DNA from: Pseudomonas mucoides
GTDB taxonomy: Bacteria > Pseudomonadota > Gammaproteobacteria > Pseudomonadales > Pseudomonadaceae
Assembly: GCF_015461845.1 (NCBI RefSeq)
Contig: NZ_JACOPW010000001.1
Coordinates: 1,500,757 to 1,564,756, forward strand
Reading direction: 5' to 3'
Length of the DNA stretch: 64,000 bases
The notes under the pieces are model-generated. The model made no database searches and was not told where the DNA came from. It saw only the letters and a list, made by a program, of their open reading frames with translations. The position numbers and the translations under genes were made by a program. Below are positions 4,927-62,741 of this stretch, piece after piece (the stretch's first letter is position 1; each line of letters begins with the position of its first letter).

Positions 4927-6071
4927 AAGGCGCTGCGAAAAATCTCCTCGATCTGGCGCTGATCCGCCGCCCGGGGATTGGTAAAACCGCAGGCGTCTTT
5001 CAGCGCATTGGTGGCAAGCATGGGGACGTCATTGAGTCTGGCGCCGAGCTCACGCAATCCGGCCGGGATGTCCACATCACTGGACAGGCGACGGATCGCG
5101 GCAATAGCCGCTTGAGCACCCTCTTCAGGGCTGAAACCACGGATGTCGGCGCCCATCGCATGAGCCACGTCGGTCAAGCGCGGGGCGCACACCTGAGCGT
5201 TGAAGCTTTGAACGTGGGGTAGCAGCACTGCGTTGCAGACGCCATGAGGCAAGTCGTAGAACCCACCCAATTGGTGAGCCATGGCGTGGACATAACCCAG
5301 GGACGCGTTATTGAACGCCATGCCCGCCAGGAATTGCGCGTAGGCCATGTTTTCCCGCGCCGCCATGTCATCGCCGTTGCGCACCGCCAGCCGCAGGTTG
5401 TTGCTGATCAACGTGATCGCCTTCAGTGCACAAGCATCGGTGATCGGGTTGGCGGCGGTGGAGACGTACGCTTCGATGGCGTGGGTCAGTGCGTCCATGC
5501 CGGTGGCGGCCGTCAGCCCCTGGGGCATGGCGACCATCAGCGCCGGGTCGTTGACCGACAGCAGCGGCGTGACGTTGCGGTCGACAATGGCCATTTTCAC
5601 GTGGCGCGATTCGTCGGTGATGATGCAAAAACGCGTCATCTCGCTGGCGGTGCCGGCGGTGGTGTTGATCGCGATCAGCGGCAGCTGCGGTTTGCTTGAT
5701 TGATCGACACCTTCATAGTCGCGGATCTGCCCGCCGTTGGTCGCACATAACGCGATGCCCTTGGCGCAGTCGTGGGGCGAACCACCCCCGAGAGACACCA
5801 CAAAATCGCAGCAACTTTCCTTCAACAAGCCCAGGCCGAGCTCAACGTTGGCCATATTCGGGTTGGGTTTGGCGCCGTCAAAGATCACCGAATCGATGTC
5901 CTGCATCGCCAGTTTTTGCGCAATCATTTTCGCAACGCCGGCCTTGGCCAGCCCGACGTCGGTGACAATCAGCGCTTTGCGAAAGCCATACTTGCCAATG
6001 GTGTCCATGGCTTCGTCGAGGCAACCCGTGCCCATGATGTTCACGGCGGGAATGAAAAACGTGCTGCTCAT
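4923..6071 (-). CDS. yiaY: Iron-containing alcohol dehydrogenase
   Basis: A 382-residue group III (iron-dependent) alcohol dehydrogenase, the usual length for YiaY/ErcA-type enzymes, catalysing NAD(P)-linked oxidation of primary alcohols or reduction of aldehydes. The NAD-binding [10 protein letters not shown] motif lies near residue 100. The likely metal ligands are the Asp and His in [12 protein letters not shown] and the two His in [15 protein letters not shown]. The ATG at 6071 has a GGAGA site and gives the family length; the frame is open 25 codons further. A TTGAT-N4-CTCAA sequence 84 bp upstream suggests control by the oxygen sensor ANR. The yiaY name reflects similarity to the E. coli gene only; substrate is not determined. 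Confidence 0.88.
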
Positions 6072-6154
6072 GAGCGATTCTCCTGGCTGGGCCGAATCGG
6101 CGACGCCGATCCAGCGGGACGCCCACAGCTTCGACCCTTCGCTCACGCAGTAAC

Positions 6155-6168
6155 TTGATCTGGCTCAA
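6155..6168. promoter_or_regulatory. Candidate ANR/FNR box
   Basis: TTGATCTGGCTCAA matches the FNR/ANR consensus TTGAT-N4-ATCAA at 9 of 10 positions. Its centre is about 90 bp before the alcohol dehydrogenase ATG and 66 bp before the divergent DUF4917 ATG, so it could serve either. Iron-dependent alcohol dehydrogenases are often induced at low oxygen, which favours the dehydrogenase. Confidence 0.5.
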
Positions 6169-6227
6169 GTCATGGTCGTGATAAAGTCGCCGCCCATCAG
6201 ACCTTTTGCTTTGAGACTTTGACCGCA

Positions 6228-7247
6228 ATGACCGATTTCCAGGATGTTGATGCCCAACTTGAAGACTGGAACGCCTTGCGCGCCACCGCCTCGTTCAGCG
6301 GCCTGCTGGTGGGCAACGGCGCCAGCCGTGCGGTGTGGGACGACTTTGGTTACGACTCGCTGTTCGAGAATGCGCGCACCGTCGAAGAAAAACCGCTGAG
6401 CCAGTCCGAGCTGAGCGTGTTCGAGGCGATGCAGACACGCAGTTTCGAACAAGTGCTGAGCGCGCTGAAAACCACCAGTCGCGTGAACAAGGCGTTGGCC
6501 GTCAGCTCCGCCGCACCGCGCAATCGCTATTACGCGATCAAGGAAGCGCTGATCAACACCGTGCATGCAGTACATATTCCATGGCGACTGGTCGTGCCTT
6601 CGACGCTGGCGACCATCAGCTCGGAACTGGGCAACTATCGGACGGTGTTTACCACCAACTATGACTTGCTCAATTACTGGTCCATCCAGCATCAGCCGGA
6701 CGCGATCACCGACCTGTTCCAGGGCGCCGAGCCGGGCTTTGACCTGAGCGTCACGGCGACCGATAAAACCCGTTTGCTGTACCTGCACGGTGGTTTGCAC
6801 CTGGTGCGCAATCAGGACGGCACGGCGCGCAAGCTGATGTCGACCGAGGGCACGCTGCTCGGCAGTTTCGCGATCAACAATACGATCAAGACCCTGGATG
6901 ACGTGCCGCTGTTCGTGAACGAAGGGCCGGCGCAGGACAAGCTCAAGACCATTCGCAGCTCGGATTATCTGTCGTTCTGTTATGACCAGTTATTGGGGCA
7001 TGGCGACGGGTTGTGTGTCTTTGGACATGCGCTGGGCGAGCAGGATAGCCATATCGTTCATGCGTTGCGCCAGGCGAAACCGTCGGTGGTGGCGATCTCG
7101 ATTTATCCGCGCAGCAAGGCGTTTATCCAGCATCAGAAGCGGCATTACGCGAAGGTGTTTGAGGGGACGGGATCAGCGCTGCGGTTTTTTGATTCGAAGA
7201 CGCACGCGTTGGGGAATCCGAAGCTTACGGTTCCGGTTGAGGTTTAG
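6228..7247 (+). CDS. DUF4917 (SIR2-like) protein
   Basis: A 339-residue protein that I place in the DUF4917 family, related to SIR2-like folds. Visible marks are a nucleotide-binding-like turn GLLVGNGASRAVW at about 26-38, a TTNYDLLNYW segment near 145 and a YLHGGLHL segment near 190. SIR2-like domains use similar GxGxS, TNYD and LHG elements around an NAD pocket. There is no signal peptide or membrane helix. Function is unknown; NAD binding is an inference. The ATG at 6228 is used, although a TTG nine bases upstream is in frame and no clear ribosome site is seen. It stands alone, divergent from the alcohol dehydrogenase and followed by REP repeats. Confidence 0.75.
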   Translation: MTDFQDVDAQLEDWNALRATASFSGLLVGNGASRAVWDDFGYDSLFENARTVEEKPLSQSELSVFEAMQTRSFEQVLSALKTTSRVNKALAVSSAAPRNRYYAIKEALINTVHAVHIPWRLVVPSTLATISSELGNYRTVFTTNYDLLNYWSIQHQPDAITDLFQGAEPGFDLSVTATDKTRLLYLHGGLHLVRNQDGTARKLMSTEGTLLGSFAINNTIKTLDDVPLFVNEGPAQDKLKTIRSSDYLSFCYDQLLGHGDGLCVFGHALGEQDSHIVHALRQAKPSVVAISIYPRSKAFIQHQKRHYAKVFEGTGSALRFFDSKTHALGNPKLTVPVEV

Positions 7248-10114: not shown

Positions 10115-11329
10115 TCAGAGGTAGCCGTCAGCCCGCAGCAGGGTTTCAAGACAGTGTTCGCTGATGTGGTAGAAATCCTTCAGCGCCTGAATCTTCACCA
10201 ACAGCTGGGCCGGGTCCACCGGCTCGGCGCGTTTGACCGCCAGGATCATCTTGTTCTTGTTGGTGTGGTCCAGCGAGATGAACTCGAACACCTTGGTTTC
10301 ATAACCGCAGGCTTCAAGGAACAACGCGCGCAAGCTGTCGGTGACCATTTCAGCTTGCTGGCCCAAATGCAGACCGTATTGCAGCATCGGCTTGAGCAGT
10401 GCCGGGCTCTGGATTTGCAGGCGGATCTGTTTGTGGCAGCACGGCGAGCACATGATGATTGAGGCGCCGGAACGAATGCCGGTGTGAATCGCGTAGTCGG
10501 TGGCGATATCGCAGGCATGCAGGGCGATCATCACGTCCAGCTTGCTCGGTGCCACGCTGCGCACGTCACCGCATTTGAACACCAGCCCCGGGTGCTCGAG
10601 TTTCGCCGCAGCGGCGTTGCACAAGTTGACCATTTCTTCACGCAGCTCGACACCCGTCACCACGCCTTCAGCGTTCAAGGTGTTGCGCAGGTAGTCGTGG
10701 ATGGCGAACGTCAGGTAACCCTTGCCCGAACCGAAATCCGCCACCTGCACCGGCTTGTCCAGCGCCAGCGGTGAGGTAGTCAGCGCATGGCTGAAGACTT
10801 CGATGAACTTGTTGATCTGCTTCCACTTGCGCGACATCGCCGGGATCAGCTCGTGTTTGCTGTTGGTCACGCCAAGGTCGGCGAGGAACGGCCGGCTCAG
10901 GTCGAGGAAGCGGTTTTTTTCGCGGTTGTGCTCGGCGGATGGCACTTCACGCAATTGCTGAGATTTGCTCTTGAACAGCGAGGACTTGCCCTTTTTGCTG
11001 TATTCGAGCTGGGCTTCATCGGTCAATGACAACAAATGCGCATTTTTGAACGAGGCCGGCAGCAGCGCGGCGATGGTCGCGACACCTTCGGCCAGCGGCA
11101 GGTTCTTGGTGATGTCGCGGGTTTTGTAGCGATAGACGAAGGACAGGCAAGGCTGATCCTTGACCGTCAGCTGATTGATGATCAGGCGCTGTAAATCCGC
11201 TTCGGTACCGACGTACTTGGCCAGCACCAGCTTGATAAAGGCGTTGGCGTCGAGGCTGGTTTGCAGCAGGTCGATGAACTGGGCGTGGTGATCCGGCGCG
11301 AGGCTGGCGGGAGTGGCGGTGACGGACAT
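10115..11329 (-). CDS. SAM-dependent methyltransferase (Methyltransf_32-like)
   Basis: A 404-residue protein with an N-terminal region of unknown fold and a C-terminal class I methyltransferase domain from about residue 185. The SAM-binding motif I is VADFGSGKGYLTF. Motif II/III follows in GVELREE and KCGDVRS. A conserved IALHACDIATD segment and a CSPCCHKQIR segment are typical of the Methyltransf_32 group, which includes eukaryotic METTL25/RRNAD1-like proteins. Substrate is unknown; the Cys pair may bind a metal or be structural. The ATG at 11329 was chosen because conservation starts there; the frame is open for 40 codons more into a promoter-like region. No operon partners. Confidence 0.82.
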   Translation of the reverse strand: MSVTATPASLAPDHHAQFIDLLQTSLDANAFIKLVLAKYVGTEADLQRLIINQLTVKDQPCLSFVYRYKTRDITKNLPLAEGVATIAALLPASFKNAHLLSLTDEAQLEYSKKGKSSLFKSKSQQLREVPSAEHNREKNRFLDLSRPFLADLGVTNSKHELIPAMSRKWKQINKFIEVFSHALTTSPLALDKPVQVADFGSGKGYLTFAIHDYLRNTLNAEGVVTGVELREEMVNLCNAAAAKLEHPGLVFKCGDVRSVAPSKLDVMIALHACDIATDYAIHTGIRSGASIIMCSPCCHKQIRLQIQSPALLKPMLQYGLHLGQQAEMVTDSLRALFLEACGYETKVFEFISLDHTNKNKMILAVKRAEPVDPAQLLVKIQALKDFYHISEHCLETLLRADGYL

Positions 11330-11452
11330 GGGCAAAACGGCCTCGGGCGGAGCGAATCGGGGAATGGCGGGTATTTTAGGGGGGATGTCGATGCAGGGCA
11401 CGGGTAATTTCCCGAACGGCACGATCTGTAGCAGCTGGCGCGTGGTCAAGCA

Positions 11453-12070
11453 TCAGCCTAACACCACCAACCGGTTCGGCAACTCATTGCGCACCTGCGT
11501 TACCGGCACATGCACTTTAAGTAATTCACCACACGCCTCGATGCACGTCACGAACCCTTGCAACGTCTGCCCCTGTTTCACCTGCTGGGTGAACGCCGCC
11601 ACAATCGAATCCCAGTTCTTGTTGTCCAGCCGCCTGGAAATCCCTTCATCCACCAGGATTTCCACATAGCGCTCAGCCTCGCAGACAAAAATCAGCATTC
11701 CGGTGCTACCGACCGTGTGGTGCAGGTTCTGCTCCAGGAATTGCCGGCGCGCCAGGTTCGAGGCGCGCCAGTGCCGCACTGAACGCGGGACCAGGTGCGT
11801 GGTGACTTTCGGCAGGCGGAACACCAGGCACAGCACCACAAAAGTGATCCATTGCACCAGCAGCAAGCTGTGCAGGGTCAGCCATCCGCTGAGGTAATGC
11901 ACGATCCCCGGCACCATCAGCGCCAGCAGGCTGGCCCACAGCAGCGGAATGTATGCGTAGTCGTCGGCGCGGGCAGCGAGCACGGTCACCAGTTCGGCGT
12001 CAGTGTCGCGCTCGACCCGGGCAATCGCCTCGGCGACTTTGCGTTGTTCGTGTTCAGTCAGTAATGCCAT
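11453..12070 (-). CDS. TPM-domain membrane protein
   Basis: A 205-residue protein with an N-terminal TPM-like segment (VAEAIARVERDTDAELVTVLA), two hydrophobic helices at about 40-85 and a C-terminal TPM continuation. It lies 28 bp downstream of the larger TPM protein and is very likely the third gene of a lemA-TPM-TPM operon, an arrangement common in Pseudomonas. TPM-domain proteins have been linked to phosphatase activity and photosystem assembly in plants; the bacterial role is unclear. The frame is open 63 codons further upstream, but that part is the shadow of the Gly-rich end of the preceding gene. Confidence 0.83.
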   Translation of the reverse strand: MALLTEHEQRKVAEAIARVERDTDAELVTVLAARADDYAYIPLLWASLLALMVPGIVHYLSGWLTLHSLLLVQWITFVVLCLVFRLPKVTTHLVPRSVRHWRASNLARRQFLEQNLHHTVGSTGMLIFVCEAERYVEILVDEGISRRLDNKNWDSIVAAFTQQVKQGQTLQGFVTCIEACGELLKVHVPVTQVRNELPNRLVVLG

Positions 12071-12098
12071 GTTGAAAAGTGCCTGCTCATTATTGTTA

Positions 12099-12854
12099 TC
12101 ACCAGCCGCCCGACGAACCGCCGCCCCCGAAACTGCCCCCGCCGCCGCTGAAGCCCCCGCCTCCACCGCCGCCACCAAAACCACCGCCGCCGAAACCGCC
12201 GCCCGAACCACCCGAACCCCCACGGCCGGAGGGCAGAAGCCCGAGCATCTGCAAGACAAAAATCGTCAGGATGAACAGCATCACCAGAAACACGAAGACG
12301 CCGGGATGACGCGCCACGAAGTCGCTGTCCTCATCACCGCGCGGCTCATAGACCGTTGAGGGTTCATCCAGCGGACTGCCGCCCAACACCACCAGCATCG
12401 CCGCGACCCCGTCGCTGATGCCTTTGCTGAAGTTACCCGCCTTGAACGCGGGGGTGATCACCTGATTGATAATCACCGAACTTTGCGCGTCGGTCAGTCG
12501 ATCTTCGAGGCCATACCCGACTTCGATGCGCAATTTACGCTCATCGCGCGCAACGATCAGCAGCGCGCCGTTATTTTTATCTTTCTGGCCAATGCCCCAG
12601 GCTCGGCCCAATTGGTAGCCGAAGTCCGCGATGTCGGTGCCTTGCAAGTCCGGCAACGTGACCACCACCAACTGCTCGCCGGTGGCGCTTTCATGGGCCT
12701 GAAGTTGTTGTGTCAGTTGCTCGCGCACCGACGGCTCGATCATCTGGGCGTTATCGACCACCCGCCCGGTCAGCGCCGGAAACTTCAACTCGGCCTGCGC
12801 CGTCAGGGCACACACCCAGAACAACAGCATCAGCCCCACTTTCAACACGCGCAT
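12099..12854 (-). CDS. TPM-domain protein with Gly-rich tail (YgcG-like)
   Basis: A 251-residue exported, membrane-anchored protein. An N-terminal signal peptide ends near ALTAQA; the TPM domain covers about 25-150 and starts with LTGRVVDNAQMI. A transmembrane helix lies at about 182-205. The last 45 residues are almost only Gly, Ser and Phe, ending SSGGW, a hallmark of the YgcG group. It probably faces the periplasm. The ATG at 12854 has a GGATGAGG ribosome site 6 bp upstream; an ATG four codons earlier overlaps that site and is less likely. It follows lemA by 34 bp and precedes a second TPM gene. Confidence 0.88.
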   Translation of the reverse strand: MRVLKVGLMLLFWVCALTAQAELKFPALTGRVVDNAQMIEPSVREQLTQQLQAHESATGEQLVVVTLPDLQGTDIADFGYQLGRAWGIGQKDKNNGALLIVARDERKLRIEVGYGLEDRLTDAQSSVIINQVITPAFKAGNFSKGISDGVAAMLVVLGGSPLDEPSTVYEPRGDEDSDFVARHPGVFVFLVMLFILTIFVLQMLGLLPSGRGGSGGSGGGFGGGGFGGGGGGGGFSGGGGSFGGGGSSGGW

Positions 12855-12888
12855 TGGCAACCTCATCCGTGGTAATGCTTTTAGCCGG

Positions 12889-13497
12889 TCAGAACTTTAC
12901 CTGAGGTGCCTTATCGGCATCCGGCGTGGTCGCCTCGAAGGTTTCGCGGATCGGCAAATCGCTGTACAAAACGGTGTGCCACAAGCGACCGGGAAAAGTA
13001 CGAATCTCAGTGTTGTACTTTTGCACCGCGAGGATGAAATCACGACGGGCCACGGCGATGCGGTTTTCGGTGCCTTCAAGTTGCGACTGCAAGGCGAGGA
13101 AGTTCTGGTTGGCCTTCAGGTCCGGATAACGCTCGGACACCACCATCAAACGGCTCAAAGCCCCCGTCAGTTGATCCTGGGCCTGCTGGAACTGTTTGAG
13201 TTTTTCCGGGTTATCCAGGGTCTTGGCGTCCACCTGAATAGACGTTGCCTTGGCCCGTGCTTCAATCACCGCGGTCAGGGTTTCTTCTTCGTGCTTGGCA
13301 TAGCCTTTGACAGTTTCCACCAGGTTGGGGATCAAGTCGGCGCGACGCTGATACTGGTTCTGCACCTGGCCCCACGCGGCCTTGGCCTGCTCGTCGAGGG
13401 TCGGAATCGTATTGATGCCGCAGCCCGCGAGCACAGTGGTCAACAGCATCAGGGCTGCCACCTGCAAGCTCGAGCGATAGTGGTGTCTTGCATTCAT
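12889..13497 (-). CDS. lemA: LemA family lipoprotein
   Basis: A 202-residue LemA-family protein. The N-terminus is a lipoprotein signal with lipobox LAGC at about residue 26. The body is a long helical bundle with the LemA signature NQYQRRADLIPNLVETVKGYA and repeated Gln/Glu-rich helices. It should be anchored in a membrane facing the periplasm. It is not the sensor kinase once called LemA (GacS). The function of the family is unknown, but it is regularly encoded with TPM proteins, as here. The ATG at 13497 has a GGGAGTGA ribosome site. The gene is divergent from bglX, with about 235 bp between the starts. Confidence 0.9.
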   Translation of the reverse strand: MNARHHYRSSLQVAALMLLTTVLAGCGINTIPTLDEQAKAAWGQVQNQYQRRADLIPNLVETVKGYAKHEEETLTAVIEARAKATSIQVDAKTLDNPEKLKQFQQAQDQLTGALSRLMVVSERYPDLKANQNFLALQSQLEGTENRIAVARRDFILAVQKYNTEIRTFPGRLWHTVLYSDLPIRETFEATTPDADKAPQVKF

Positions 13498-56830: not shown

Positions 56831-56978
56831 GGCTTAGCACCAAACGCGATTACCATGATGCCAAAATCATATGGAACCATTTTGACATCATCCCTTGCAC
56901 TCCAGACACGGCCTCTATACTCGATGACATTCGCTGGCGTTCATTGCGCCGGCCGGGATGACAACGACGGGGCGTGCT

Positions 56979-59261
56979 ATGGAGTGGCTTGGTCTGCATT
57001 TCATTACCGAGCTGACAGCGAGCGGGCAATTCATACTCAATTGCACGCATGACCCTTTTCTGGTGCTGCTGGCTTATGTCGTGGCGTGTGCTGGCTGCTT
57101 TGCCACGCTGGATATGGCAGAGCGTGTGGCGCATGCGGAAAGTCCGGCTTCGCAAAGGCTTTGGCGCTGGGTCGGCAGTGGGTGCCTGGCAGGCGGAATC
57201 TGGGCCATGCACTTTATCGGCATGCTCGCGTTCCAGGCACCTGTCGACATTCACTACCAACTCCCCGTCACCCTGATTTCACTGGCAATCGCCCTGTGCG
57301 CGGCCTGGCTGGTGATGCACACCCTCAGCTTCCCCGACCTGAATGTCCGGCATTGCCTCAAGGCCTCGGTGTGGGTCGGTCTGGGGATTACCGCCATGCA
57401 TTACGTGGGCATGGCGTCGATGCAATCGAGTGCCACGGTCTACTACCAGCCGGCGTTGTTTGCCTTGTCCATCGCCATCGCGATTGGCGCCAGCCTCGCG
57501 GCACTGCTGCTGTCGCGCTATTTGCGTGACGGCACCGGGATGTTTCACCAACTGCTCAAATACAGCGCCAGCCTCCTCCTCGGGGCCGGCATCCTGAGCA
57601 TGTATTTCACCGGGATGGCCGCCTTCGATCTGGTGATACCCAGCAGTAGCGTCCTGGCGCCGGTCAGCGAACACAGCCACCTGCAACTGGCGCTGACGGT
57701 GGCGGTCATTACGCTGCTGATCATCGGCAGCAGCATCAGCGCGGCACTGGCGGACAAAAAACTGCAACACAAGGAGCGTGATCTGCAGCGGGTCAACTCG
57801 CTGCTCAGCCAACTGGATCAGGCGCGCCTGTCGCTGCAGCAAGTGGCGCATTACGACGCCTTGACCAACCTGATCAACCGTCGTGGCTTCAATCAGATAT
57901 TCGCCGAGAAACTGATCGAGAAGACCAACGAAGGGGGCATGCTGGCGGTGATGTTCCTCGACATCGACCACTTCAAGCGCATCAACGACAGCCTTGGCCA
58001 TGACGCTGGCGATGAATTGCTCAAAGTGCTGGCCGGCCATATCAAAAGCTCGGTGCGCAGCCACAAAGATGTCGTGGCCCGATTTGGCGGGGACGAGTTC
58101 TGCATCCTCATCGGCCTCAATGATCCCGAAGAAGCGCAGCACATGGCCCAGCGCATCATGCTGAAAATGAAGGAGCCCATCGAGCTCTCCGGCCGCAACA
58201 TGGTCATGACCACCAGCATCGGCATCAGCCTGTTCCCGCAAGACGGCAAGACCTGTGAAGAACTGTTGAAAAACGCCGACCTGGCGCTGTACCAGTCCAA
58301 GGACGCAGGTCGCAACGGCCTGAATTTTTTCAGCTCCAACCTCAAGACCCGCGCCACGATGGAGCTGCAACTCGAAGAAGAACTGCGGCACGCCCTGCGT
58401 AAAGACAATGAATTGATGCTGTATTACCAGCCGATCTTCGACCTGAAAACCGGCCAGGTCAGTAAGCTCGAAGCACTGGTTCGCTGGCAACACCCGGTTC
58501 ATGGCTTGCTGGCGCCTGATCGGTTTATTGCCATTGCCGAGGCCAATGGCCTGATCCATGAGCTCGACAACTGGGTGCTGCGCAAAGCCTGCGAAGACCT
58601 GGGTGAATTGTCCCGGCACGGTTGCGAGGAACTGAAGATCGCGGTCAATTGCTCACCGCTGAACCTTGCGCGTGAAGAGCTGGCCGACGAAATCGAACTC
58701 GCGCTGCACGCCTCCGGGGTCGCGCCGCAACGGCTGGAGCTGGAAGTCACCGAAAATGCGCTGATGGGCAACCTCGCCAACACGCTGGTGCTGCTACGGC
58801 AGATTCGTGCCCTCGGGGTCTCCTTGTCGATCGATGACTTCGGCACCGGGTACTCGTCCCTGGCCTACCTCAAGCGCCTTCCGCTGAACACGCTGAAGAT
58901 CGACCGCTCGTTTATCCAGGACATTCCCAAAGCCACACAGGACATGGAAATCGTCCAGGCCATCATCGTCATGGCCCACAGCTTGCATTTGCAGGTGGTC
59001 ACCGAAGGAGTCGAAACCTTCGAGCAGTACGATTTTCTCGAACGCCTGGGCTGCGATTTCGTTCAGGGCTACCTGCTCAGTCGCCCGGTGCCACTGGCTG
59101 AGTTGCGTCCGGTGTTGAACGAAATCAACCAGCGCAAGCATTCGTTCAACGTCACACCTCTGAGCCAGGCTCGCGGTACATCTGCACTAACGTCGATGGA
59201 TCTTTTTCCAGGAATCCCTGGCTCCCATGCAGGCGCATCAGTTGCGCAGCCAATCCGCTGA
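56979..59261 (+). CDS. MHYT-GGDEF-EAL c-di-GMP protein
   Basis: A 760-residue membrane protein with a seven-helix MHYT sensor (residues about 10-235) containing MHFIGMLAF, MHYVGMASM and MYFTGMAAF, thought to bind a metal or gas. A GGDEF domain follows at about 290-460 with an intact motif (RFGGDEFCIL). An EAL domain at about 470-720 has EALVRWQHP and DDFGTGYSSLAYLKRLP, so both activities may be present. The ATG at 56979 is preferred because the MHYT helix begins there; an ATG seven codons earlier (56958) is possible. The last 36 or so codons overlap the convergent dehydrogenase gene by 110 bp and look like a non-conserved tail. Confidence 0.9.
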   Translation: MEWLGLHFITELTASGQFILNCTHDPFLVLLAYVVACAGCFATLDMAERVAHAESPASQRLWRWVGSGCLAGGIWAMHFIGMLAFQAPVDIHYQLPVTLISLAIALCAAWLVMHTLSFPDLNVRHCLKASVWVGLGITAMHYVGMASMQSSATVYYQPALFALSIAIAIGASLAALLLSRYLRDGTGMFHQLLKYSASLLLGAGILSMYFTGMAAFDLVIPSSSVLAPVSEHSHLQLALTVAVITLLIIGSSISAALADKKLQHKERDLQRVNSLLSQLDQARLSLQQVAHYDALTNLINRRGFNQIFAEKLIEKTNEGGMLAVMFLDIDHFKRINDSLGHDAGDELLKVLAGHIKSSVRSHKDVVARFGGDEFCILIGLNDPEEAQHMAQRIMLKMKEPIELSGRNMVMTTSIGISLFPQDGKTCEELLKNADLALYQSKDAGRNGLNFFSSNLKTRATMELQLEEELRHALRKDNELMLYYQPIFDLKTGQVSKLEALVRWQHPVHGLLAPDRFIAIAEANGLIHELDNWVLRKACEDLGELSRHGCEELKIAVNCSPLNLAREELADEIELALHASGVAPQRLELEVTENALMGNLANTLVLLRQIRALGVSLSIDDFGTGYSSLAYLKRLPLNTLKIDRSFIQDIPKATQDMEIVQAIIVMAHSLHLQVVTEGVETFEQYDFLERLGCDFVQGYLLSRPVPLAELRPVLNEINQRKHSFNVTPLSQARGTSALTSMDLFPGIPGSHAGASVAQPIR

Positions 59262-60048
59262 GGGGGGTCGCCGAACCCTGTTCGCGGGAAAACTTCACGG
59301 CGGTGTCGAGATCTTTGAGCAGCGTGCGCACATGCCATTTCACCGGTTCAAATTGGCTCTCGGCCATTTGCGGGGCGAGGATCTGCAACGGTTTTGAATC
59401 GGCAAAACCACCGGCCAGTGCCTCGGCGATCAACCGGGCGTCAACCCCGGAAGACTCGGCCAACGCCACCACTTCGGCGATCACCAGCGCATTGCACGCC
59501 ACGATCATCTGATTGCACGCCTTGGTCACCTGCCCGGCCCCGACGCCGCCCATGTGGGTGACACGCTGGCCCAGAGTCAGCAATAGCGGACGTACTCGCT
59601 GCAGATCCACCGCTTCGCCACCCACCATGATCGCCAGGCTGCCGGCCTCGGCGCCGACCACACCACCGGACACCGGCGCATCCAGCCAACTCATTCCGGT
59701 GCTGTCGAGCAGCTGTTTGGCCATTTCTCGTGTAGCGCTGGGTTCCAGGCTGGAAAAATCCACCAGCAACTGAGCGCTTTTTGCCCCCGAGGCCACCCCG
59801 ACCGGACCAAACACCACCTCACGCACCACCGCGGTGTCCGCCAGGCACAGCAGGATGATGTCGGCGTGCTGGCACAGTTCGGCGGGGGTTGCCACTTGTC
59901 GGGCACCGGCCTCCACCAACGGCGCGCACTTGCCCGGGTTACGGTTCCACACGGTCAACGGATAGCCCGCAGCCAGCAGGCGCCGGCACATGGGCAGCCC
60001 CATCAGACCAATACCGGCGAACCCCAACGAAGGTAGCGTTGACATCAT
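59152..60048 (-). CDS. NAD(P)-dependent beta-hydroxyacid dehydrogenase
   Basis: A 298-residue enzyme of the 3-hydroxyisobutyrate/tartronate semialdehyde reductase family. The NAD(P)-binding turn is GFAGIGLMGLPMCRRL (residues 8-23). The substrate-binding DAPVSGGVVGAEAGSLAIMVGG run is near 122-143, and the catalytic Lys is in GAGQVTKACNQM near 173. The substrate cannot be told; no glyoxylate or valine genes are adjacent. An AAAGGAGG site precedes two successive ATG codons. Its 3' end overlaps the tail of the c-di-GMP gene on the other strand by 110 bp. Confidence 0.9.
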   Translation of the reverse strand: MMSTLPSLGFAGIGLMGLPMCRRLLAAGYPLTVWNRNPGKCAPLVEAGARQVATPAELCQHADIILLCLADTAVVREVVFGPVGVASGAKSAQLLVDFSSLEPSATREMAKQLLDSTGMSWLDAPVSGGVVGAEAGSLAIMVGGEAVDLQRVRPLLLTLGQRVTHMGGVGAGQVTKACNQMIVACNALVIAEVVALAESSGVDARLIAEALAGGFADSKPLQILAPQMAESQFEPVKWHVRTLLKDLDTAVKFSREQGSATPLSGLAAQLMRLHGSQGFLEKDPSTLVQMYREPGSEV

Positions 60049-60244
60049 TTAGCCTCCTTTTGATTAAAGATCGCCGAATATTGGCCGATCCATCATGACT
60101 AAGGAAAGGATTCCACCCACTGATGCTCAGGCGAGTCCCTGAGACTTTGGCCAAATACGCGCATAAAAAAGACGCGAGATCCCATTCCGTGAAGGTTTGA
60201 CGACAGATGTCGCTCAGCCAACCAGTCCAGGTAGATGGCGCCCA

Positions 60245-62446
60245 ATGACTTCTAAAAATAACCCGGCCACCACGGTCTCCGATCTGACTCTGAGCCCTGC
60301 GGCGAACAGCCCCTCATCGTCGAAGCCATTGACCCCGGTGCGCCCGCTGGCCACTCAGCAATACCTGTATTTCACTGAAACCAATACCGACCGCATCCTC
60401 GATAACCTCGACGGCCTGCGCGACATGGTGTTCCCGCGCCCGCCCCACCTGGAAGGCGTGAGCGAACAGCATAACGACCAGGAATTCCCGTCGGTGTGCC
60501 TGATCGGTCTTGGTCGTTGCGGCTCGAACATTGCTCTGGACGTCGCGGAGCTGGTGTACAACGCCCGCAAGTTCTACCTCAACGAATTCAACAACGAAGA
60601 CCGTCTGTCGCCGGACAAACGCTTTGCGGAAAAGGGCTACAGCCCGGCCCAATGGATTCGTAACAACTTGCGCCTGGGCACCAACAAGGGCGCCAAACCG
60701 GTGTTCCTGGTAGAACCGCTGGTGATGCTTGGCGACCTCGACAAAGACATCGCCGGCCGCATCCGTTTCTCGCGCAAGGGCGAAAAAAGCGGGTTCCTGC
60801 GCGACTACAGCAAAATGAAAATCATGGACTTGTCGGAAGTCCACGCCGGTGGTGCCGGTAACGCGCCGATCCTCGGTCAGTACCTGGCCAAGATCATCCT
60901 GAACAAGGACACCCAGCGTTTCTCCAGCCCTGACTGGAAGATGATTCACTCGTACCTGATCGACAGCTGCGGGATCAAGGCCAACCAGTCGCGCCTGTAT
61001 TTCTCGATCTTCAGTGCCGGCGGCGGTACCGGTTCGGGCATGGCCTCGGAGTTCGGCCTGGCCCAGCAGCACTCGTACATGAACAAGACGTTCGACACCA
61101 AACCGATGGACGAACATGACGGCAAGAGCGGTCATTCCTTCGTCTTCGAGCCGATCTTCACCAGCGGCATTTGCGTGCTGCCGAACATTTCCGATCACCG
61201 CAGCGAAATGTCCGAGGCGCTGCACATCAACGCCGGTCGCCTGCTGTGTAAATACCTGTCAGAAGAGTGGGATTTCTCCTACAACTTCGCCAACGAAGAC
61301 AGCAGCGAAGCCAGCGTCATGGGCCGTATCCGCCCATGGAACGCCATGATGCTGATCTCCAACGACATCATGCGTTATGCCGAAGAAAGCGATGACGGCA
61401 ACATCCAGAACATTGACGTCAATGCGATGGAAAAACACGCCAACCAGTACATCTCGCAGCAGATCTTCAACATCCTGACGGCGCAGGCGGTAACGACCGA
61501 CTACGACCAGAACTATTTCCGTCGCGCCGGCATCGACATCGGCGAAACCATTCGCCTCGACGCCAACGACCTGTTCATGAGCCTGGCCGGCCCGGTGGCG
61601 ATTGCCTACGCCGAATCCGTGGTGCCGGAAACCCCGCCGCCAAGCAGCGACAAGTTCAAGGTGTTCGAGAAAGAACCGCAGCGCCTGAACATCGATGATT
61701 TGTTCTTCCGCTCCATCGACCTGCCGCATTTCAACAAAGTGACCCAGGCGATCGAAGGCATCAGCCTGCTGCCGATCGAATCCAAGCGCTATCGCGCCTC
61801 GCTTGAGCAGTACAAGAATTCCGGTTACGACGCGGCCGCGCTGCACGACCTGCACTTCTTCAAGAACTGCTCGTCGGTGGTGTCGATCGTTTCCTTGCCG
61901 AAAGACTACAAGCTGTCCTACATGGACTTGAACCGGTTGAAGACCCACCTCAACAGCCTGTTCCCGAACACGACGCTCAAGCGCTACGCGCTGGTGATCG
62001 GCGCCTCGGCCAACTTGTCGCTGACCACCCTGATCGCCAAGAGCCCGTGCCTGTCGGACGACTTCCTGACGTTGATCGTCGCGTTCATCAAGCGCTGCTT
62101 CGCGAAGAACCCGTACCGCTTCGACGAGACGCTGGACAACTCGATCCTCGACTTCATTATTAATGAAGAATTCGACGAAGACCGGATCGACGACTTGCTC
62201 AACGAATTCGAGAACCCGGCGAAGATCCTCGATACCAACTGGTACGCGATCAAACCGATGTACGAGAAGAAGTACCGCGAGCTGATCAACGACAAGGACA
62301 AGTTTGTCTCGATCAACGACATTCGCCTGTCGCGTGATTGCGTGAAGAAGGCGATCAAGTACCTGCGTGAGATCTACCGTCACCGCATTGGCAAAACCAA
62401 GGTTATTTCGCTGAATAACCATACTGGCAAGACTTTCTCGGTCTGA
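60245..62446 (+). CDS. Tubulin/FtsZ-superfamily protein
   Basis: A 733-residue protein with the nucleotide-binding loops of the tubulin/FtsZ superfamily in order. T1 is VCLIGLGRCGSNIALDVAEL with GxGxxGxN at 88-95. T2-like FYLNEFNNED is at 110-119, and T3-like AGGAGNAPILG is at 201-211. The T4 signature GGGTGSG is at 259-265. A T7-like segment, KLSYMDLNRLKTHL (556-569), aligns with the FtsZ catalytic loop but has Tyr for Asn and Arg for the second Asp. Roughly 290 residues separate T4 from T7, far more than in FtsZ. The first 60 residues are low-complexity Ser/Pro/Thr. There is no signal or membrane helix. I think it belongs to the tubulin-like (Tubulin_2) group; role unknown. The start is uncertain: an in-frame TTG lies at 60197. 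Confidence 0.8.
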   Translation: MTSKNNPATTVSDLTLSPAANSPSSSKPLTPVRPLATQQYLYFTETNTDRILDNLDGLRDMVFPRPPHLEGVSEQHNDQEFPSVCLIGLGRCGSNIALDVAELVYNARKFYLNEFNNEDRLSPDKRFAEKGYSPAQWIRNNLRLGTNKGAKPVFLVEPLVMLGDLDKDIAGRIRFSRKGEKSGFLRDYSKMKIMDLSEVHAGGAGNAPILGQYLAKIILNKDTQRFSSPDWKMIHSYLIDSCGIKANQSRLYFSIFSAGGGTGSGMASEFGLAQQHSYMNKTFDTKPMDEHDGKSGHSFVFEPIFTSGICVLPNISDHRSEMSEALHINAGRLLCKYLSEEWDFSYNFANEDSSEASVMGRIRPWNAMMLISNDIMRYAEESDDGNIQNIDVNAMEKHANQYISQQIFNILTAQAVTTDYDQNYFRRAGIDIGETIRLDANDLFMSLAGPVAIAYAESVVPETPPPSSDKFKVFEKEPQRLNIDDLFFRSIDLPHFNKVTQAIEGISLLPIESKRYRASLEQYKNSGYDAAALHDLHFFKNCSSVVSIVSLPKDYKLSYMDLNRLKTHLNSLFPNTTLKRYALVIGASANLSLTTLIAKSPCLSDDFLTLIVAFIKRCFAKNPYRFDETLDNSILDFIINEEFDEDRIDDLLNEFENPAKILDTNWYAIKPMYEKKYRELINDKDKFVSINDIRLSRDCVKKAIKYLREIYRHRIGKTKVISLNNHTGKTFSV

Positions 62447-62460
62447 CGCCAGACCAGGTT

Positions 62461-62535
62461 GCCGCCATCGCGAGCAGGCTCACTCCTACATGTGGAATGC
62501 GTTCCCCTCTAGGAGTGAGCCTGCTCGCGATGAGC
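62461..62535. repeat. REP doublet (REPIN)
   Basis: GCCATCGCGAGCAGGCTCACTC and GGAGTGAGCCTGCTCGCGATG pair around about 20 bp, directly after the tubulin-like gene. Confidence 0.9.
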
Positions 62536-62741
62536 CCCTCAAATCCGCTGAAAATGTCAGTCTTTCCAACATCCAGAAACAATTAAGCAGCCCTCAGGCT
62601 GCCCGACAAACTGTTCCCGTTACGTTTACGTCACCGTGATGCTGGCCATGCCTGTGGCCTTTCTCTACGGCAACGTGCCATCACGCTACTCACCTACACA
62701 CTTTTGCTCGCCCGCACGACGCACCAATAAGGCGCAGCGAT
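62536..62741. other. Intergenic region after the tubulin-like gene
   Basis: 206 bp between two convergent genes. It contains a GCAGCC-CTCA-GGCTGC hairpin at about 62589-62604 without a T-run. I see no gene or clear terminator here. Confidence 0.4.

Follow-up and report, generated by a model that had tools for sequence, protein, structure and literature searches.

In FtsZ, helix H7, loop T7, helix H8, and strand S7 follow one another in that order, and the C-terminal conserved peptide is DIPxFL; TubZ and PhuZ carry the signature GGGTG[ST]G. The FtsZl2 family was described in 2010 by Makarova and Koonin with PFL_1302 of P. fluorescens Pf-5 as its type and, in the available part of their report, is said to possess T1, T4, T6, T7, and helix H7, is predicted to form filaments, and is characterized as limited to Proteobacteria, with an alpha/beta C-terminal region of about 300 amino acids and without associated genes (PMC2875224). 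The literature searched, which omits most subscription papers and bioRxiv, yielded no experimental study of the family; within it, the locus tag PFL_1302 appears in PMC2875224 alone, and the name FtsZl2 or FtsZ-like 2 also occurs in one further paper, an FtsZ/ClpP study. According to the accessible part of its text, a 2023 evolutionary study excluded FtsZ-like sequences of the Tubulin_2 type from its main reconstructions and, in that part, does not use the term FtsZl2 (PMC9871819).

Our analysis of 64,000 nucleotides of Pseudomonas mucoides DNA (contig NZ_JACOPW010000001.1, positions 1,500,757 to 1,564,756; hereafter the window) reveals a 733-residue protein, encoded by the open reading frame at 60245–62446 of the forward strand, that appears to fit FtsZl2 as set by the published description of the family rather than by comparison with the PFL_1302 sequence. 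In particular, the gene belongs to the P. fluorescens group, and the protein has GGGTGSG as its T4, GTPase loops in order, weak similarity to PF00091, a C-terminal part of about 300 residues that contains no known domain, and no conserved neighbors; no difference from the family, known here by its description, was found. With regard to the loops used to define the family, T1, T3, and T4 are invariant, and the positions of T6, H7, and T7 are putative, assigned from sequence conservation, from spacing, and from the alignment to Tubulin_2. The original prediction had presented the locus as a candidate for an undescribed cytoskeletal or membrane-shaping system; because FtsZl2 was published in 2010, as the available part of PMC2875224 documents, the family is not undescribed. 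What is new here is a stand-alone gene that is patchy, is missing from otherwise kept loci, has changed state repeatedly, has apparently been transferred, and evolves with a median dN/dS of 0.04.

The longest version of the open reading frame opens with TTG at 60197; since neither this codon nor its frame is kept in the aligned relatives (upstream alignment, by eye), ATG at 60245 is the likely start. The aligned upstream regions contain no nameable motif common to the lineages. These lineages are Pseudomonas, a genus of the same order (g280), and two families (f203 and f38), all in one class, and they are represented in A2, a 40-row alignment of the window protein and 39 relatives picked for diversity, from which close named relatives, short search loci, L114, L124, L126, L129, L130, L185, and the broken L146 were left out. 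The N-terminal tail (residues 1–39; 60245–60361) is variable in Pseudomonas and, judged from the start positions in the alignment, comprises only about 8–12 residues in most g280 and f203 copies; a long tail would be mainly a Pseudomonas feature.

The four motifs reported in the original prediction are all present where it placed them on the forward strand: GLGRCGSN (T1; residues 88–95, 60506–60529), AGGAGNAPILG (T3; 201–211, 60845–60877), GGGTGSG (T4; 259–265, 61019–61039), and SYMDLNRLK (558–566, 61916–61942). Each of the eight T1 positions is identical in 40 of 40 A2 sequences, T3 is invariant in A2, and the FtsZ T4 segment scores highest at GGGTGSG, above all 200 shuffles; shuffling the protein 200,000 times never produced the pattern GGGTG[STA]G. 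T1, T3, T4, Asn373-Asp374, Asp439, and Asp442 are invariant across all four lineages (A2), with the lineages other than Pseudomonas being 67–72% identical to the window protein.

By hmmscan, the whole protein matches PF00091 (Tubulin) at E 0.0033, only at residues 253–269 around T4, and PF13809 (Tubulin_2) at E 0.0055; the GTPase part alone matches them at E 3.4e-4 and 8.5e-4, with the Tubulin_2 match starting at residue 203 in T3 and extending to residue 383, past S6. A Pfam profile search had been put forward as a check of the original prediction, and it succeeded in part: both models match, weakly, but the window protein lies below the curated cut-offs of both (for PF13809, 16.4 bits for the whole protein and 19.3 bits for the GTPase part, at a gathering cut-off of 27) and gives no match to TIGR00065 up to E 10. 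Both Tubulin and Tubulin_2 are matched, again weakly, by 40 of 40 A2 sequences, and also by 27 of 27 GTPase parts in a further set, A4, from which 13 of the 40 A2 rows were left out. Two other Pfam families occur at similar E-values, namely the unrelated DUF6562 in 3 of the 40 A2 sequences (best 4.1e-4) and Noc2 in 9 of the 40 (best 0.0044). Because DUF6562 reaches E 4.1e-4, single E-values of this size are not decisive; what carries the case is that two related models agree across all 40 sequences, along with the order of the motifs. On this basis, the assignment of the protein to the tubulin/FtsZ superfamily, as a divergent member with T1, T3, and T4 in order, appears sound, as originally proposed, and remote. 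Searches of NCBIfam, PADLOC, and PHROGs gave no relevant match, a search of PDB sequences gave no solved relative, and comparison with an FtsZ profile and hmmsearch gave an alignment limited to the T4 loop and six T3 residues placed on the T1 glycines of FtsZ.

The same genome encodes, elsewhere, a separate canonical FtsZ, which is its sole TIGR00065 match. Like FtsZ, the window protein has T1, T3, and T4, followed in order by likely T6 and T7 elements; unlike FtsZ, it is 733 residues long (397 in the genome's own FtsZ), has longer T1–T3 and T6–T7 stretches, and lacks the DIPxFL peptide, which the genome's FtsZ contains. It resembles FtsZl1/Tubulin_2 proteins (PF13809) in being alignable from T3 to past S6 (203–383), and differs from them in scoring at most 19.3 bits against the cut-off of 27; a PF13809 search of the genome gave no match at E 0.001, and none of the FtsZl1-type operon partners (vWA, kinase, GTPase, or OmpA-type) occurs among the seven scanned neighbors in the window. 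With TubZ and PhuZ it shares the superfamily and the GGGTG[ST]G signature, but, unlike the genes of these plasmid and phage tubulins, the window gene is chromosomal. At E 0.01, neither the 72,556 plasmid records nor the 50,697 phage records yielded a relative; at E 10 the plasmid records still gave none, and the phage records gave three weak rows (E 0.2–0.9, covering 9–17% of the query), which we take as chance. Viral contigs likewise contained no relative.

The Tubulin_2 match, which spans residues 203–383, therefore takes in strand S6 and the likely T6 loop; SNDIM (372–376; 61358–61372), which includes Asn373, would be the end of S6 together with T6. Asn373 and Asp374 are invariant in A2, and Asn373 presumably contacts guanine, by the role of the T6 Asn in FtsZ and tubulin. 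The original prediction took SYMDLNRLK as an altered T7 and, from the alteration, derived a possible loss of normal hydrolysis. At Asp561 of this motif, the 40 A2 rows have Asp in 25, Ala in 14, and Ser in 1, and at residue 564 they have Arg in 33, Lys in 6, and Gln in 1; moreover, Asp561 lies 188 residues and Ser558 lies 185 residues past the likely T6 Asn373, whereas 42 residues separate the T6 Asn from the T7 Asn in the FtsZ of the same genome. In contrast, residues Arg437 to Ser446 (RLDANDLFMS) are identical in 40 of 40 A2 rows, have Asp439 and Asp442 at the spacing of the FtsZ acids, and begin 64 residues past Asn373, making the T6–T7 stretch 22 residues longer than in FtsZ. We therefore regard it as quite likely that RLDANDLF (437–444; 61553–61576) is the T7 loop, on the basis of conservation, spacing, and the Tubulin_2 alignment rather than of similarity to FtsZ T7. 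If so, Arg437 stands where FtsZ has Asn, a real difference, and the GTP-splitting loop, which keeps its two acidic residues, is probably intact rather than altered. A second candidate, Asp419-Tyr420-Asp421 (61499–61507), is also invariant in A2 and has an acid spacing unlike that of FtsZ. With RLDANDLF as T7, the question comes down to two residues, Asp439 and Asp442.

AlphaFold2 modeling of the full-length chain from the 40 A2 sequences gave a pLDDT of 37 and a pTM of 0.32, and modeling of residues 380–733 gave a pLDDT of 53 and a pTM of 0.48; because the diversity of the family is too low (Neff 1.6), both models are too poor to settle the fold. Both predict the likely helix H7 at 392–416 (61418–61492; to 417 at its longest) with low confidence (pLDDT about 30–40), followed by a short helix from 439–441 to 447 and a strand at 451–454, also at low confidence, an order that would match the H7-T7-H8-S7 order of FtsZ, with the same low confidence. 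Around SYMDLNRLK, the model of residues 380–733 has a strand at 544–550, a helix at 559–572, at the start of which the motif lies, and a strand at 580–586 (block pLDDT 58–60, 58–71, and 43), an arrangement that may resemble the C-terminal domain of FtsZ. Fold searches with the models returned weak rows (best Z 4.1 and best Z 5.7, to unrelated helical regions), and a third, with a best E of 0.64, returned nothing at E 0.001. Neither FtsZ nor tubulin occurs in two of the lists (the list with best Z 4.1, and the best 50 of 332 rows). Near the bottom of 50 rows obtained with a poor model is one FtsZ chain (from FtsZ:MciZ, Z 2.1), with residues 478–586 aligned to FtsZ 232–297, and the same weak rows also include a chain from a tubulin-CopN complex (Z 2.4) that, judged by its length of 285 residues, is probably not the tubulin; neither row counts as evidence by itself.

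Gapless scoring of FtsZ segments against the window protein, with 200 shuffles per segment, gave only two segments that beat the shuffles at 5%, namely T4 and S6-T6. The T3 segment falls in the right place (P about 0.07). For the T1 segment, the highest score is at the T4 glycines, with the true T1 next (P 0.11), and the S6-T6 segment scores highest at 544 (P 0.015), away from the assigned T6, and third at 364. Nowhere in the protein is the FtsZ T7 segment matched significantly: in its short form it scores 10.9 at 480, 9.3 at 435, and 2.8 at 557, all within the range of the shuffles, and none of these three places is among the top three for a longer T7-H8-S7 segment. The FtsZ C-terminal-domain, S8, H10, and S10 segments are likewise not significant, and the proposed resemblance of the SYMDLNRLK stretch to the C-terminal domain, to which segment scoring gives no backing, consequently draws only on the secondary structure of a model of moderate confidence.

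These observations bear on the idea that the protein binds GTP but, with a T7 lacking its second acid, does not hydrolyze it normally and forms a stable assembly or regulates another filament such as FtsZ. SYMDLNRLK does have an Asp with a basic residue three positions later, as does T7 of beta-tubulin, and our placement of T7 at RLDANDLF is itself provisional. Nevertheless, the replacement of Asp561 in 15 of 40 sequences, set against 40 of 40 for RLDANDLF, and its position 188 residues past the likely T6, in what the moderate-confidence model renders as a strand-helix-strand stretch, make this idea improbable.

Our preferred reading, to which we give slightly better than even credence, is that the protein is a chromosomal FtsZl2 that binds GTP and forms a dynamic one-component filament with a dispensable job. 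Specifically, GTP would be bound in a pocket of the tubulin/FtsZ type built by T1 to T6, a step well founded on the motifs; subunits might then stack head to tail, so that T7 (probably RLDANDLF, with Asp439 and Asp442) would reach the GTP of the next subunit and trigger its hydrolysis, and a dynamic filament of one component would result. Filament formation and hydrolysis, taken from knowledge of the superfamily, stand on less ground than GTP binding. The protein would be distinct from the division FtsZ, which the genome also has, and would need no dedicated partner encoded next to it.

The C-terminal part (447–733; 61583–62443), of about 290 residues, is strongly conserved, has no recognized domain (no Pfam family above its cut-off by hmmscan), and shows mixed alpha/beta content in the AlphaFold2 model at moderate to low confidence; it probably replaces and extends the usual C-terminal domain and provides lateral contacts or an attachment site. 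Across 89 loci, the median dN/dS relative to the window copy is 0.039, with medians of 0.125 for residues 1–77, 0.028 for 78–470, and 0.021 for 471–733. That the C-terminal part is as constrained as the GTPase part, and that the T1–T3 and T6–T7 stretches are longer than those of FtsZ, would suit a tubulin-fold GTP switch or scaffold that forms no filaments and whose GTP state controls partner binding by the C-terminal part. We consider this unlikely, as a longitudinal interface for hydrolysis requires just such a pair of invariant Asp residues, spaced as in FtsZ, and as filaments were predicted by those who described the family, in the available part of their report (PMC2875224).

The seven neighbors scanned in the window belong, by Pfam, to RapA, MFS, CxxCxxCC, MHYT-GGDEF-EAL, NAD_binding_2, DUF2288, and Peripla_BP, and include no par, phage, or defence gene; together with the chromosomal contig, this agrees with the original description of a gene that stands alone. 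A survey of neighbors in other genomes, which that prediction had suggested, and in which neighbors were mostly assigned by eye, revealed differences by lineage: the main Pseudomonas group has RapA, MHYT-GGDEF-EAL, dehydrogenase, DUF2288, and LivK-type genes; L120–L122 have the order MFS, gene, dehydrogenase; g280 has Rho-like and phosphatase-like genes (by eye); and four f203 loci compared have SucD-like or topoisomerase genes upstream and phosphofructokinase downstream. Since the neighbors differ between lineages, the gene works without a fixed adjoining partner. In the f38 locus (L132), the next gene downstream, at 5001–6923 on the same strand, encodes a protein of 640 residues that matches no Pfam family at up to E 1e-5.

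GGDEF proximity is one partial exception to the absence of associated genes. Genes for GGDEF or GGDEF/EAL proteins are found no more than 4 kb away, invariably on the strand of the tubulin-like gene, in 12 of 22 Pseudomonas, 8 of 13 g280, and 1 of 1 f38 loci (in the window at 56958–59261, and in L114, L118, L122–L131, L132, L144, L190–L195, and L199). This recurrence, in settings built in several different ways, is what one would expect if the protein were an output of cyclic-di-GMP signaling, its assembly tuned by the neighboring GGDEF/EAL enzyme. However, no GGDEF gene lies that close in any of 9 intact f203 loci, nor in the remaining 10 Pseudomonas and 5 g280 loci; and such genes are common (18–61 per genome) and stay beside the dehydrogenase gene in 9 of 11 examined loci that have no tubulin-like gene. 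We accordingly give a cyclic-di-GMP output very little credence. In L190 (oriented locus, 10404–13490) and like loci, the downstream gene encodes a large protein that appears to combine a membrane domain of the ammonium-transporter type with GGDEF and EAL domains (by eye; GGDEF/EAL by tblastn).

The gene, present as a single copy in the window's genome, was found in 99 of the 149 Pseudomonas genomes sampled; a strongly constrained relative of tubulin and FtsZ thus occurs in about two thirds of them, and the window copy is under every Pfam cut-off. In a scan of species of all phyla, which covers close relatives only, the best 80 matches listed are all from Pseudomonas, and wider sampling gave 2 of 369 genomes of the class (the window's own included) and 9 of 398 of the phylum. 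Among the genome searches made within the phylum, the gene is present in 29 of 48 genomes of g280 (perhaps Marinomonas, a genus listed in the available part of PMC2875224), in 11 of 12 of f203, where one copy is broken, and in 1 of 3 of f38; g273, a genus that shares its family with the window's genome, gave no match in the three genomes listed. The broken copy (L146, genome G878) consists of several interrupted pieces, and its f203 relatives are intact.

Twenty of the 50 gene-lacking genomes of the genus were examined: 11 keep the neighboring dehydrogenase gene (E 1e-60 or better) and 9 have no dehydrogenase match at this threshold. Five of the 11 (L223–L227) have the dehydrogenase, DUF2288, and LivK-type genes together without the tubulin-like gene, and none of these five gives a blastn match to window positions 60045–62566. 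A dehydrogenase tree of 22 rows with the gene (of 23; L018 had no match at threshold and was left out) and 11 without requires 8 changes of the presence label, at least 6 of them forced by well-supported branches; as its rows were chosen by hand, the tree shows repeated change, not its rate, nor loss as opposed to gain.

In the FtsZl2 tree, two f203 rows lie among g280 rows with starred support, and the f38 row lies among Pseudomonas rows on a long branch with unstarred support. FtsZl2 sequences are more similar to each other than FtsZ sequences are in all 7 of the pairs drawn from different lineages (67.6–74.1% versus 58.7–67.0%), and less similar in both of the pairs drawn from within the genus (78.5 and 88.7% versus 89.6 and 93.9%); because this pattern fits transfer but also saturation, the transfer argument leans on the FtsZl2 tree. 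The gene thus appears to have moved between orders, in one direction or the other, with an older duplication followed by loss as the alternative for f203. In L180, L182, L186, and L187, which represent both tree groups of f203, a phosphofructokinase-like gene lies downstream (Pfam-checked in L186); as one of these groups nests with g280, replacement at the same site is possible.

A patchy single gene that is repeatedly lost or gained and seems to move between orders also suggests an anti-phage protein, in which a chromosomal tubulin would disturb or sense phage spindles. Slow protein evolution is unlike an arms race, though, and with no PADLOC or PHROGs match and no defence gene among the seven scanned neighbors we hold this to be highly improbable. 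Returning to the FtsZl2 filament, we tentatively suggest, as a possibility clearly short of even, a self-sufficient one-gene bacterial tubulin cytoskeleton with its own type of filament, each subunit of which would bear an extra C-terminal part of about 290 residues. Such a cytoskeleton would be distinct from the systems of division, plasmid partition, and phage spindles, and its gene would pass between orders and be lost time and again while its sequence stays near-constant. Absence from many strains together with strong constraint where the gene is present indicates a conditional benefit, and, since the gene is missing from loci that keep their flanks, strains with and without it are directly comparable.
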